A stretch of DNA of 29,899 nt, from the IMG/VR virus record IMGVR_UViG_3300043465_000408, positions 1 to 29,899 of that record. One strand, given 5' to 3'. This stretch comes from a virus. Shown piece by piece: positions 2,654 to 28,840 of the stretch; the first letter of the stretch is position 1; each line of letters begins with the position of its first letter. The position numbers and the translations under genes are program-made. The notes beneath the pieces were generated by a model. That model did no database searches, was not told the DNA's origin, and saw only the letters and a list, made by a program, of their open reading frames with translations.

Positions 2654-2847
2654 AGTGCCCCCATTGCGATGGCGACAAGGTCTGCGTGCAATACACGCGG
2701 CACATCGACGACAGCTCAATCCTCCGGCTGCGGCAGTGCCGTGGCTGCAGGAAGCACTGGTTCACTCGCGAGCTGGAGGTGCCGGGCCAGGCCTCCTGGA
2801 GCCGGTGGGATGACATTGCACCAGCAGCCCTTGAGCTGGCGTCATGA
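2650..2847 (+). CDS. zinc-ribbon protein, NrdR-like N-terminal domain (65 aa)
   Basis: Residues 1-41 form a zinc ribbon: CPHC at residues 3-6 and CRGC at about 30-33, with a basic strand between them (ILRLRQCRGCRKHWFTRE). This matches the NrdR zinc-ribbon pattern (CPxC...RRRxCxxCxxRFTTxE). The ATP-cone that completes NrdR is missing, so this is a stand-alone ribbon, as found in phage Ogr-type or other small transcription modulators. It overlaps both neighbours by 4 nt (ATGA at each end) and sits directly before the sigma factor, which makes a transcription role attractive. Direct DNA or RNA polymerase binding is inference. Confidence 0.55.
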   Translation: MKCPHCDGDKVCVQYTRHIDDSSILRLRQCRGCRKHWFTRELEVPGQASWSRWDDIAPAALELAS

Positions 2848-3803
2848 GCGGTGACCTGTCCTGGTGGGTCCAGCAGATCAGCCGCCATCCGCTGCTGACC
2901 CCAGCGGAAGAGATCAGCCTGGCCACCATCATCCAAACCTGGCAGAAGCACCCAGACCCGTCTGCCGTGGTGGTGCGCCGCGGTCAGCGGGCCGCGAACC
3001 GCATGGTGACTGCCAACCTGCGGCTGGTGATCATGATCGCCAAGCGCCACAGCAGGCTCACCAAGCCCGATGAGCTGATGGATCTGATCCAGGCCGGCAA
3101 CATTGGGTTACATCGTGGCGTGCTGCGATTCGACCCAACCCGCGGCTACAAGTTCTCCACCTACGGGTACTGGTGGATTCGGCAAGGTGTGGCGCGGTAC
3201 CTCGAGGAACTGAGCCGCACCATCCGGTTGCCCAGCACCTTCAGCCAGCGCATCACCGGCGCTGGCCGGGCCACCCAGCTGCTAGTTGGGACACTGGGGC
3301 GAGAGCCAAGCCTGGCCGAACTGGCCGAGGAGTTGGGCATGAGCGCCAACGATCTATCAATGGCGTTCAGTCGGTCCATCACCTGCGCCAGCCTGGATGC
3401 GCCGGTGATGGATGACGGCTGCTCACTGGGTGAGCTGATCGCCGACCCACAGGCCGGTGATCACAACGACCGCCTCGAAGCCATGGCGCATGAGGAACGG
3501 CTGGAGGGTATGCGCAGCGCCCTGGAGCTGCTGCCAGGCCGGCAGCGCCAGCTGCTGGTTGATCGCTGGGGCCTGCTCACCGGCGCTCCCCAGACCATTC
3601 GCGGCATGGCAGCGGCTGCTGGGGTGAAACCAGCACGGATCAGTCAGGACATCCGCCGGGCCGAGATGGCCCTGCGGCATCGCATCCAGATTCAGGCTCG
3701 TGAGCCTGACGTGCTCGCCTCATTGGCGATTCCATGGCCAACGCGGCCGATTCAGGAGATCACCGGCGATCAGCTCGGCCTGCCTGGCATCGGCGACCCG
3801 TGA
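2844..3803 (+). CDS. sigma-70 family RNA polymerase sigma factor (group 2-like)
   Basis: A 319-aa sigma factor with all core regions. Region 1.2 lies at about 4-35 (WWVQQISRHPLLTPAEEI). Region 2 lies at 50-122, with NLRLVIMIAKRHS, LIQAGNIGLHRGVLRFDP and the -10-binding segment GYKFSTYGYWWIRQ. Region 3 lies at about 125-175 and region 4 at about 216-280, with a helix-turn-helix around TIRGMAAAAGVKPARISQD. A 35-40 residue tail follows. The long N-terminal domain 1.1 of RpoD is absent, as in group 2 sigmas. The region 1.2/2 linker (HPDPSAVVVRRGQRAANR) resembles picocyanobacterial sigmas from memory. It should steer host core RNA polymerase to phage promoters, probably for the opposite-strand late operon. 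The start overlaps the zinc-ribbon stop. The last 84 nt overlap a convergent gene. Confidence 0.9.
   Translation: MSGDLSWWVQQISRHPLLTPAEEISLATIIQTWQKHPDPSAVVVRRGQRAANRMVTANLRLVIMIAKRHSRLTKPDELMDLIQAGNIGLHRGVLRFDPTRGYKFSTYGYWWIRQGVARYLEELSRTIRLPSTFSQRITGAGRATQLLVGTLGREPSLAELAEELGMSANDLSMAFSRSITCASLDAPVMDDGCSLGELIADPQAGDHNDRLEAMAHEERLEGMRSALELLPGRQRQLLVDRWGLLTGAPQTIRGMAAAAGVKPARISQDIRRAEMALRHRIQIQAREPDVLASLAIPWPTRPIQEITGDQLGLPGIGDP
3692..3709 (-). terminator. palindrome TCAGGCTC-GT-GAGCCTGA past the last late gene
   Basis: Perfect 8-bp arms (3692-3699, 3702-3709) with a 2-nt loop, or 7-bp arms with a 4-nt loop. It lies 10 nt downstream of the stop codon of the last minus-strand gene (3720), inside the 3' end of the sigma gene. 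The same palindrome follows three other minus-strand stops. No U-tract follows, so a classic intrinsic terminator is not proven. Confidence 0.45.
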
Positions 3804-25507: not shown

Positions 25508-25519
25508 GGCTCAGGCTAC
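25503..25519 (-). repeat. 17-nt gene-junction repeat, copy 2
   Basis: Identical over 17 nt to 20973-20989, again holding a TAG stop (TerL), an 8-nt spacer and the ATGGC start (gpW). The 12-nt left part GCCATGGCTCAG also occurs at the chaperone/tape measure junction (from 15922). Confidence 0.6.
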
Positions 25520-27417
25520 CGACGCAGCCAGCCACTGCGGCCAGGCTTGTTCAGCCAGGCAGTAGTGGGCTGGCTGGCTTGGGTGGTGGGTGGTGCTGGC
25601 TGGCTGGGGATCATGCCGCTCACCTGCGCTTCCAGCTGATCCCACATGGTGGCGCGGTTGTAGCGGCGCTTCACGAGCTCCAGCATCGCCAGGCAGTAGA
25701 CCTTCAGGTCCAGGGGTTCGTTGCGGGCGCCGCTTGGCTTCTGCCACTCCAGCACCTGGAAGCCCTTCACCGTGCGCGGCACCAGCCGCTCACAGGTCAG
25801 GCCCTCGAGGTAGCCGTCGGTAGCGTTCTGGCCGAAATGAATGAAGCCTGGCCCTGGCTGATCGATCTTCAGGCGGGCGTAAATGGTGCGCTTCAGGGTG
25901 TCAGTGCCGACCATGAACAGGGTCACGCCGCCCTTCACCATGCGGCCTTTCCAGTTCACGTCCTGCTTGCTGCCCTTGCCCAGAGCCGGCGCCGCCCTGG
26001 TGCTGCTGCCCTTGATCGCAACCACGCCCTCCCGTGCCCGCTGGCGGCAGAACTCATAGGCCTCCTGGGTGAAGTGGCCGCCGGTGTCAACTGCGGTGTG
26101 GCGAATCGTCAGGATGCCGCCGCCTTCACGGGGCCATTCCGTCCGGCGAATGGTGTCGATCTGCTCCCACGGTTCAGCCTGGGCCGGATCGCCCTCAATC
26201 TTCTGGTGCCAGATCAGCCAGCTTTCATCCCCGCGGCCGACGCCCCAGACCGACACCTCAAGCCAGGTGTCCTGCACGTCAACAGCAGCAAGCAGCAGCA
26301 GCACGCCATCAGGGCAATGGCCGGTGGGGTACGGGTTCAGCGCGGCGCGCTCCATCAGGCCATCGGCATTGATCCGTGCCACCGCCTCGTCTTCCCAGGC
26401 TTCGGCGGCGTGCTTGTTGACCCAGCCCTTCAGCAGCAGCGGGTCACCCTTGGCCCGCAGGAACTCATCGCGGACCTGCTCCCACGGTGTCCAGCCGGCC
26501 GGGGCATACCAGGACGGCAGGTGGAAGCCGGCGGTCTGGCCATCGCCTGCAGCGTGCGCTCGCCATTCGGCACCGGCAAGCATGGTGGTCTTGTGGTGCT
26601 GCGCGATCCGCTCGCCGCAGGCTGGGCATTGGCACCACACCTCGCCATCCGGCCGATCCCACACCATGTGCTCGCGCCAGCGCAGCACCTCCCTGGCGCC
26701 GCAGCACGGCATGAAGGCGGCATAGCGGCGCTGGTCTGAGCGGCGCTCAAACTGCTCGGTGATCCGGCAGGCCCCGCGAGTGCCGGGGGTGCTGGTGATC
26801 AGCACCTTGCCCATCGGGAAGGTGCGCGTTCTGGCTTCCGCGTTCTCCAGCGGGTCGCCTTTGTCATCGGCCTCCAGCGGGTAGGAGCTCACCTCATCGG
26901 CGGCGAGGTAGGCGGCCGGCATCGACTGCAGGCCGCTGGCACTGTTGGCGCCGGTGACAACGAAAAGACCACCCACAAACTCCTTCAGGAACATGGTGTT
27001 GCCGCTGTCCCTGGATCGAGCCGGCGCGATCCGATCGGCCAGCACCGGTGTTTCCCTGAGCAGCGGCTCCAGGCGCTGGCGGTTCAGACGCTTCGCCATG
27101 TCCAGGGTTGGCTGCACCAGCAGCATCGGCCCGGGCCATAGGTGGATGATCGAGCCCAGCCAGTTCAACACCACCTCGGTCTTGCCCATCTGGCTGCCGA
27201 ACATCAGCACCACCCGGCGGATTGGATCGCTGGGACTCAGGCAATCCATCGGCTCCTTCAGGTAAGGCGTGCGCACCGTGCGCCATGGTCCCTTTTCAGC
27301 TGAGCCCTTGCCGCTCAGGATCCGATGCGCGTCCGCCCACTCGCTCACCGTCATGGCAGCCGGTGGCATCAGGCCATCACTGAAGGCCTGCCGGTAGACC
27401 GTTGCTGCATCAGCCAT
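25516..27417 (-). CDS. terminase large subunit, lambda GpA family (633 aa)
   Basis: The ATPase domain has Walker A GSQMGKT at 74-80 and Walker B LAADE (Asp174-Glu175). A Cys-rich zinc site follows (CCGAREVLRW and CQCPACGE, about 240-270). The C-terminal nuclease domain begins about residue 360 with AAVDVQDTWLEVSVWGVG and has a conserved block with TAVDTGGHFTQEAYEFCRQRA. The family packages DNA into proheads and cuts it at cos. The last 35 residues are Pro/Thr/Gln-rich, lower complexity. The start overlaps the small subunit by 8 nt. GpA-type terminase argues for a cos phage, which fits the repeat-rich region just upstream of the small subunit gene. Confidence 0.95.
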   Translation of the reverse strand: MADAATVYRQAFSDGLMPPAAMTVSEWADAHRILSGKGSAEKGPWRTVRTPYLKEPMDCLSPSDPIRRVVLMFGSQMGKTEVVLNWLGSIIHLWPGPMLLVQPTLDMAKRLNRQRLEPLLRETPVLADRIAPARSRDSGNTMFLKEFVGGLFVVTGANSASGLQSMPAAYLAADEVSSYPLEADDKGDPLENAEARTRTFPMGKVLITSTPGTRGACRITEQFERRSDQRRYAAFMPCCGAREVLRWREHMVWDRPDGEVWCQCPACGERIAQHHKTTMLAGAEWRAHAAGDGQTAGFHLPSWYAPAGWTPWEQVRDEFLRAKGDPLLLKGWVNKHAAEAWEDEAVARINADGLMERAALNPYPTGHCPDGVLLLLAAVDVQDTWLEVSVWGVGRGDESWLIWHQKIEGDPAQAEPWEQIDTIRRTEWPREGGGILTIRHTAVDTGGHFTQEAYEFCRQRAREGVVAIKGSSTRAAPALGKGSKQDVNWKGRMVKGGVTLFMVGTDTLKRTIYARLKIDQPGPGFIHFGQNATDGYLEGLTCERLVPRTVKGFQVLEWQKPSGARNEPLDLKVYCLAMLELVKRRYNRATMWDQLEAQVSGMIPSQPAPPTTQASQPTTAWLNKPGRSGWLRR

Positions 27418-27997
27418 TGGCCAGACCCCGCAGCGCCACCCGGTGCTCTTCGGTCAGCAGCCGGTGGCACTCGCGCGCATCGGTGGTGGCCGCCAGCATC
27501 GGCGCCAGTCGATCAGCCAGGCCCAGCAGGGCATCGCGCACCGCCCGCGCCTGAGCGAACGCTTCGGCCTTCACTTGGTCCGCTGTGACCACCTCCTCAC
27601 GCTCCCGTAGTGCCGCGACTTTGGCGCGCTCAGCGAGGTAGTGCTCCTTGCGCCGCTGGCTGTCGATCAGATCAGGAACTTGATCCTCTGGCAGCCCCTG
27701 CACCAGCGCCAGGAGCTGCTTGTTTGTGGGGAGGCTGGCCGGTGGTGGTGGATCTGGATTGAGCTGGCGAGTCTTGCGCTCTGCCGTTTTGCGATCGGCC
27801 GGGAGGCCCGTCTTTGTGTTGTTGTTGCGGCGGGTGTTCGCGTCCCAGAGCTCCAGCGCCAGATCCCGATTCAGCAGCCGGCGGCCATTGACCTCAACGA
27901 TCGCGGCGGCGATGCGCGCCTTCATGGCTTCATGCACCGTTGGCTTGCTCACGCCTTTGATGGCAGCAAACTCCGCAGGCTTGAGAAGCTCTGGCAC
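27410..27997 (-). CDS. terminase small subunit, Nu1-like (195 aa)
   Basis: The N-terminal 50 residues form a winged helix-turn-helix (LLKPAEFAAIKGVSKPTVHEAM, then GRRLLNRDLALELW), the DNA-binding part of Nu1. A Pro-rich, polar linker follows. The C-terminal part (about 115-190: RRKEHYLAERAKVAAL, VKAEAFAQARAVRDALLGLADR) fits the phage Nu1/DNA-packaging family. It uses GTG at 27997, the first codon after an in-frame TAG. It should bind cosB and bring TerL to the DNA. The candidate target is the repeat-rich region ten nt upstream of its start. Confidence 0.75.
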   Translation of the reverse strand: MPELLKPAEFAAIKGVSKPTVHEAMKARIAAAIVEVNGRRLLNRDLALELWDANTRRNNNTKTGLPADRKTAERKTRQLNPDPPPPASLPTNKQLLALVQGLPEDQVPDLIDSQRRKEHYLAERAKVAALREREEVVTADQVKAEAFAQARAVRDALLGLADRLAPMLAATTDARECHRLLTEEHRVALRGLANG

Positions 27998-28006
27998 TCG
28001 CTACAG

Positions 28007-28095
28007 ATCGTTAGGTCGGTCCAGTTAGGCTAACGATCCCCTAACTTCCGCCTAACTGGGTCGGGGATCGACTGACAAAGGGGGCCATGGTTAGG
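28007..28095. promoter_or_regulatory. GTTAGG cluster with nested inverted repeats (cos/cosB or operator candidate)
   Basis: Five GTTAGG hexamers lie in 86 nt: + strand at 28010, 28024 and 28090; - strand at 28040-28045 and 28051-28056. Three perfect inverted repeats interlock: ATCGTTAG 28007-28014 with CTAACGAT 28030-28037; CCAGTTAGGC 28021-28030 with GCCTAACTGG 28050-28059; CGATCCCC 28034-28041 with GGGGATCG 28063-28070. The location, directly upstream of the terminase genes, is where lambda-like phages carry cos. An operator for a late regulator is the other reading. Confidence 0.5.
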
Positions 28096-28151
28096 AGGGT
28101 TGGCGGCCTGCCGCTAAAAATTGACCGAGCGCGAGTTTACCCTCGGGCCAT

Positions 28152-28201
28152 GACCCCTTGGGAGGACCCTGAGACCCCCAAGCCCCGTGCCGCAAGGGGT
28201 C
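28152..28201. repeat. 9-bp inverted repeat past the Z-like gene
   Basis: GACCCCTTG (28152-28160) and CAAGGGGTC (28193-28201) are perfect arms around 32 nt that themselves allow GC hairpins (CCCC 28183-28186 with GGGG 28196-28199). It starts 6 nt beyond the Z-like stop on the minus strand and could be a terminator or part of cos. Between it and the GTTAGG cluster (28096-28151) I see no gene. Confidence 0.4.
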
Positions 28202-28207
28202 TTGTAC

Positions 28208-28840
28208 TCACTTTGGCTTGATCGCCTGCTCTATCCAGTGGTTGAGCCGAGCAGGTAGATGCCGCTCGATGCTCGCGCTGCTGATCCGATCAATCGGCCA
28301 GCGGCGTTGAATGTTGGGCAGGGCGTTGAAGCTCAGGATGTTCTTGATCTTCCCTTTGGCCATCCGCTGGTAGATGCCAGGCTTGAGCTTGCCTTTGGCG
28401 CCATCAACGCGGAAGAGGCTCGGCCCACCCTTGAGCGCTCTGACCGCCTGCGCCTTGCTGATGTTGCCGCTGCTGTTCAGGCTGGCACCAAGGCCTGGCC
28501 GCCATGCCGCCACGCCTTGTAGCTTGCGCTCCGATGGTCGCTGGGGCCTGATGCCACCCTTGACCGACGGCACCAGGTAGCTGGCCTGGATCGGTCTGAG
28601 GTTCAGTGTGGCCGTGAGGTTGTTCTTGTTGCTGTAGCCCGTGACCGCATAGCCGCGTTGCGTGAACTTAGTTGGACGGTCGAAGTAGGTCGAGGTTGAC
28701 GCGTTGAGATCCTTGACTGCTTCCTTGGCCGCATCGTTGAGCGCACGGGATGTGGCGTAAGGCATCTGGCCATTGATCGTGGCAAGCCACAAAGCGGCCT
28801 TATTCAGATCCTTGCTGTCGATGCTGACGTTGATGTTCAT
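28208..28840 (-). CDS. minor tail Z-like / virion-associated protein (210 aa)
   Basis: Starts at ATG 28840 (overlapping the upstream stop TGATG), not at 29059, which would run through two other genes. The N-terminal half has the order seen in the phage minor tail protein Z-like families: an amphipathic start, YATSRALNDAAKEAVKDLN, FDRPTKFTQRGYAV, then a strand-rich region. The middle is basic (GGIRPQRPSERKLQG). The C-terminal end closes with SIERHLPARLNHWIEQAIKPK, also frequent there. In lambda Z sits between FII and U, but here it is upstream of the terminase, separated by the candidate cos. The family call is moderate; another head-completion type is possible. Confidence 0.45.
   Translation of the reverse strand: MNINVSIDSKDLNKAALWLATINGQMPYATSRALNDAAKEAVKDLNASTSTYFDRPTKFTQRGYAVTGYSNKNNLTATLNLRPIQASYLVPSVKGGIRPQRPSERKLQGVAAWRPGLGASLNSSGNISKAQAVRALKGGPSLFRVDGAKGKLKPGIYQRMAKGKIKNILSFNALPNIQRRWPIDRISSASIERHLPARLNHWIEQAIKPK

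Follow-up and report, generated by a model that had tools for sequence, protein, structure and literature searches.

How the small terminase subunit (TerS) reads DNA has so far been worked out mainly in phages lambda, 21 and N15. In lambda, cosQ and cosN are assigned to termination, and TerS binds the sites R3, R2 and R1 (PMC9026076; PMC4669245). R3 occupies bp 50-65 in lambda and bp 48-60 in N15 (PMC9026076), and a narrow "lambda-like" group has been defined by the sequence of the cohesive end (PMC4669245).

Here we analyzed a viral contig of 29,899 bases (IMG/VR record IMGVR_UViG_3300043465_000408; the entire stretch is referred to as the window), in which a dense array of short repeats precedes the terminase genes. 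Its nearest named relatives, judged by the gene for the large terminase subunit (terL), are the Synechococcus siphophages S-CBS3 (79%) and S-CBS1 (78%), and our search of the open-access literature found no description of cos for this cyanophage group. We estimate a probability of about 0.87 that the region is a lambda-type cos of an S-CBS1/S-CBS3-group cyanosiphophage, with an enlarged, dyad-rich cosB that would be read by a Nu1-like TerS. The repeats are most likely TerS docking sites, predicted to lie beside the cut that makes the ends. This reading draws on contig ends that approach cosN from both sides, on cosQ, on a conserved distance between the sites and cosN, and on a match between the repeat word and the class of the TerS winged HTH (wHTH).

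Arrangement of the region ahead of terS

Read on the minus strand, the region consists of cosQ, cosN, a conserved box, a lone R site at about bp 50, a spacer, a cluster of half-sites, terS and terL (Table 1). As in lambda, the terminase pairs a GpA-family TerL with a Nu1-like wHTH TerS, and all elements lie within the last 150-200 bp ahead of terS. A sequence-only reading had drawn attention to the interval 28007-28095 and had placed the start of a Nu1-like gene ten nt away; terS indeed starts there, at bp 145. The most informative parts of the region, cosN and cosQ, lie outside that interval. A minor tail protein gene lies on the far side of cos; in S-CBS1 and S-CBS3, too, the gene that comes last ahead of cos encodes such a protein. 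We sought relatives of terL in genome contigs and found none, and hence no evidence of a host or a prophage.

Table 1. Elements of the candidate cos region and flanking genes of the window, listed in minus-strand order; bp are counted from the first cohesive base (left end)
Feature	Position	Strand	bp	Remarks
Minor tail protein gene	28208-28840	-		PHROG 1924, E=3e-36; far side of cos, right end of virion genome
cosQ, GGGTCCT	28163-28169	-		21 nt upstream of the cosN nick
Left arm (minus strand) of perfect 5-bp inverted repeat around cosN	28142-28146			From sequence
cosN, predicted 12-nt 5' cohesive end GGTAAACTCGCG	28130-28141	-		By homology to contig ends of relatives
Right arm (minus strand) of the same repeat, CCGAG/CTCGG	28125-28129			From sequence
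Conserved box TTTTTAGCGG	28111-28120	-	22-31	At the place of the lambda I2 segment; putative role
Candidate R site 1 (R3-equivalent), GTTAGG	28090-28095	+	47-52
C-box CCCCGACCC	28058-28066	-	76-84	Spacer
Inverted repeat, 8 bp	28034-28041/28063-28070
Candidate R site 2, GTTAGG	28051-28056	-	86-91
Inverted repeat, 10 bp	28021-28030/28050-28059
Candidate R site 3, GTTAGG	28040-28045	-	97-102
Inverted repeat, 9 bp	28006-28014/28030-28038
Sixth core copy (half-site), GTTAG	28030-28034	-		Fused to R site 4
11-bp dyad GTTAGgCTAAC	28024-28034			R site 4 plus sixth half-site
Candidate R site 4, GTTAGG	28024-28029	+	113-118
Candidate R site 5, GTTAGG	28010-28015	+	127-132
terS, Nu1-like terminase small subunit	27410-27997	-		PHROG 57, E=1.4e-18
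terL, GpA-family terminase large subunit	25516-27417	-		Pfam GpA_ATPase and GpA_nuclease; PHROG 15, E=4.8e-236

TerS was modeled with an N-terminal winged HTH, formed by helices at residues 7-14 and 18-26, after which come two strands and another helix. Structural comparison matched the model weakly to 6hn7, the Rpp/TerS packaging-redirection complex (probability 1.00, TMt 0.68, E=0.22), a similarity that we regard as suggestive. A search of PDB sequences with the TerS profile returned no significant match.

The five GTTAGG hexamers described in the sequence-only reading are all present, and the core GTTAG occurs six times in the array. Five hexamers in 86 nt compare with 0.012 expected (Poisson P ~2e-12); this is below the 0.04 given in the earlier reading. 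Only seven GTTAGG exist in the whole window, five of them in the array. When the window was dinucleotide-shuffled 40 times, five GTTAGG never fell within 86 nt, and in another 20 shuffles the count of every hexamer stayed at four or below; in the unshuffled window, two other and simpler hexamers, GCCGCC and CAGCTG, also attain five at other places. The three perfect inverted repeats that had been reported are real, although the first is 9 bp rather than 8 bp long and the three are interlocked, not nested. The dyad GTTAGgCTAAC recurs in a relative, L160, and CTTAAcTTAAG dyads occupy the corresponding stretch of other relatives.

The remaining elements keep their places among relatives. Only two copies of GGGTCCT are found in the window, and the identical 7-mer stands 23 nt from the right end of lambda. 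Where cosN had been located without the use of cosQ, GGGTCC[CT] was present upstream of it in 23 of 24 relatives; a separate tally of 18/18 was discarded as circular, as those loci had been picked by cosQ. The stretch of the conserved box contains [TC]AGC in 39 of 43 cos loci. Core-site centers in the same 43 loci concentrate in the bin at bp 50-54 (28 centers, with all six word classes represented), and very few fall between bp 55 and 84. The center of the first site is at bp 50-51 in most relatives, regardless of the word; it is at bp 50.0 in the window, 1 nt closer than in L160 (bp 51.0). Within the spacer, a C-rich box at bp 76-82 is found in 18 of the 43 loci; L124 has it in identical form and L160 in nearly identical form. 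The pattern of this box, CCCC(G/T/A)(A/C)CCC, holds a constant place (bp 76-84) in those 18 loci.

Contig ends at cosN and comparison with lambda

On the minus strand, positions 28125-28146 of the window read CCGAG^GGTAAACTCGCG^CTCGG, a 12-nt segment between the arms of a 5-bp inverted repeat. To place the ends, we counted 90 distinct IMG/VR contigs of relatives that are cut off upstream of terL. Exactly at the cosN base, 32 of the 90 begin (29 at GGT and 3 at an ATGG variant), and another 4 begin 1 nt away. The GGT of these starts is that of (G)|GGTnnATTC. We also located, by pattern, contigs that approach cosN from the opposite side. All six that end in cosN (L251, L252, L257, L264, L268 and L308) stop exactly 13 nt past that base. 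The left and right contig ends thus overlap by 13 nt, as a filled-in 5' overhang would give, and the probable 5' polarity of the ends was deduced from this overlap. The window, L006 and L007 are 1 nt shorter at cosN than most relatives, which in the window agrees with the 1-nt shift of its first site. Since the window contig and the near-identical L004 and L005 run through cos, the end of the window was placed by homology, and its symmetry and homology together suggest a cohesive end of 12 nt. One contig, L073, begins with ~70 nt of what is apparently sequencing-adapter sequence.

The deposited genomes of S-CBS1 and S-CBS3 are both broken at cos. The S-CBS1 record (NC_016164; 30300-30332), labelled circular and complete, stops just past cosQ and resumes inside terS, so that it lacks cosN, the array and the N-terminal part of terS. 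In the S-CBS3 record (NC_015465; 32720-33004), the phage's own sequence covers ~6 nt of the cohesive end and then gives way to a 276-nt inverted duplicate of positions 31745-32020. These breaks may be the reason why both phages were described as being without terS (PMC6157547).

The region resembles lambda in the identical 7 bp of cosQ and its spacing (21 nt compared with 23 nt), in the symmetry of cosN and its predicted 12-nt 5' end, and in a candidate first TerS site at bp 47-52, close to the place of lambda R3. It differs from lambda in the cohesive end itself (GGTAAACTCGCG compared with GGGCGGCGACCT), which places it outside the narrow definition of "lambda-like" ends, and in a shorter distance from cos to terS (144 bp compared with 190). 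Whereas lambda has three 16-bp R sequences, of which R2 has the opposite orientation to R3 and R1, the window has five or six short sites, comprising five hexamers and a half-site, in another order and including a fused dyad. A further feature of lambda is an IHF site lying between R3 and R2; in the window, the stretch from the first site to the cluster contains no sequence within one mismatch of the IHF consensus. The sequence-only reading had suggested a packaging site of a design different from lambda cosB. The design proves less foreign than that, given the identical cosQ, the placement of cosN and the R3-equivalent at bp ~50, but it is set apart by the sites clustered at bp 86-132 and by the missing IHF match.

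Repeat words and TerS classes

In the slots equivalent to those of GTTAGG, relatives carry the words TTAA, GTCAGA, GTTCAA, TTACA and TTGCA. For 45 non-redundant cos loci, we assigned TerS to classes according to its HTH peptide and counted the core word of each class in the array. Class-based counting was used instead of hexamer over-representation per locus, which is weak for TTAA-class phages, whose word is short and variable. At least two copies of GTTAG were present in 2 of 2 loci of its own class and in none of the 43 others, and the result was the same for GTCAGA (2/2 and 0/43). The corresponding counts were 23/23 and 0/22 for TTAA, 1/1 and 0/44 for GTTCAA, 11/13 and 0/32 for TTACA, and 3/4 and 0/41 for TTGCA. 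The two misses for TTACA (class E), L072 and L117, are loci at which cos had been called falsely, and the word of L273 is a variant, GGTTGC. Classes A, B and D are small, and the GTTAGG class has two independent members, the window and L160. No locus carried two copies of the word of another class, and the association between word and wHTH class was significant by permutation (p=2e-4), a test that is partly descriptive because the words were picked after the arrays had been viewed.

A partial Mantel test, which compares k-mer similarity of the arrays with protein identity, makes no use of chosen words. With terL and the terS C-terminus controlled for, array similarity followed wHTH identity (r=0.20, p=0.002); with the wHTH controlled for, it followed neither terL nor the terS C-terminus (both p=0.34). 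The sharpest contrast comes from individual relatives. L160, with a terL 83% identical over the compared part and a wHTH 82% identical, has the same word as the window; six others (L006-L009, L014 and L015), with terL at 88-89% and wHTH at 36-47%, share neither wHTH nor word with it.

In class E, genes including a ParB-like gene lie between cos and terS. The array sits beside cosN and terS is 0.8-2.5 kb away, and the word matches the TerS class despite this gap. Class F has one word, with terS adjacent to the array in L274 and L282 and ~1.1 kb away in L075. A match that holds at such distances argues against simple hitchhiking, and also against the view that the array is just an operator for the gene that follows. 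Within the first ~2.5 kb of seven contigs (L039, L045, L061, L067, L074, L080 and L200), a gene for a ParB-like N-terminal domain directly follows cos; terS comes 0.8-2.5 kb later, and the array is again next to cosN. Four loci of a further class (L256, L259, L262 and L266) have cosQ and cosN of the same type together with a TGTGAC array, and their terminases are 31-39% identical to those of the window.

Alternative readings and predicted mechanism

The sequence-only reading had offered two roles for the repeats, R-type sites for the Nu1-like protein or operators for late control. The first is supported by the contig ends, cosQ, the position of the sites and the co-variation with the wHTH. If the repeats were instead operators, a regulator or TerS itself would control late transcription through them, and any cosB function would be secondary or absent. 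Short sites in opposing pairs just upstream of terS, the first late gene, would suit an operator, and TerS autoregulation would equally yield the match between word and wHTH. Nevertheless, the sites are fixed in position relative to cosN, and the class E arrays stay beside cosN rather than beside terS. A scan of 27900-28400 found no sigma-70-type promoter-like site, although a phage sigma factor could use another kind. A gene for a sigma-70-family factor is present in the window (2844-3803), and one is also annotated in S-CBS1, S-CBS3 and S-LBS1; with a sigma factor of the phage's own, late promoters may escape such a scan. We found no positive evidence for operators and consider this reading improbable, although TerS may regulate its own gene.

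Still less probable is that word and wHTH match by hitchhiking, the array and the terS N-terminus recombining as one fragment that no protein reads. Array and wHTH are indeed adjacent in most loci, but the match persists across the separations seen in classes E and F, and the terS C-terminus, which is equally linked, does not track the array.

We also considered whether the array could be the pac site of a headful phage, that is, a TerS recognition region without fixed cohesive ends. The precedent is S-LBS1 (MG271909), a more distant cyanosiphophage that PhageTerm read analysis assigned to the headful type (PMC6157547) and in which iterated CCTAAC/GTTAGG immediately precedes the gene of a wHTH TerS. 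In that genome, eleven copies lie just upstream of terS (34275-34617, part of the tail being a repeated stretch), and the reported headful terminus is at 25,643. S-LBS1 differs from the window in having no cosQ or cosN beside its iterons, a TerL just 36% identical to that of the window and another recognition helix. An array alone is therefore no proof of cos, and one word can pair with different helices. In the relatives of the window, however, contigs end at a single base on each side with a constant overlap, rather than at variable or permuted positions, and cosQ is present; a headful pac site is accordingly very unlikely. Least probable of all is an RNA structure such as a terminator, attenuator or structured leader, which the three perfect inverted repeats might suggest and which we rejected, as folding z-scores were only -1.1 and -1.4 on the two strands (non-significant) and a terminator scan found no terminator-like site.

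Under the lambda-type cos reading, the winged HTH of TerS would bind the GTTAGG sites and hold the GpA-type TerL over cosN, where TerL would nick both strands after CCGAG. Packaging would begin at the terS end of the concatemer, and cosQ would serve to end packaging once the next cos is reached. Joining of the lone site to the cluster would take place without IHF, possibly through bending of the spacer by HU or by TerS.

In the known system used for comparison, as in this group, the R sites vary together with the recognition helix of TerS on a background of similar cosQ and cosN. Unlike that system, the present group has at least six words on one scaffold within one phage group, and some of its terS genes are far from cos. 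We give even odds to the broader proposal that a single cos scaffold common to cyanosiphophages, with close-packed dyads and free of IHF, has its TerS wHTH and word switched as a matched set, providing at least six mutually exclusive packaging specificities.

Public contig ends alone sufficed to place cosN with single-base precision, an approach that can be reused for other uncultivated phages, and the matched sets of recognition helix and word are ready pairs for testing how TerS reads DNA. If the proposal of switched matched sets is true, these phages would possess a natural recognition code that prevents co-infecting relatives from packaging each other's DNA.
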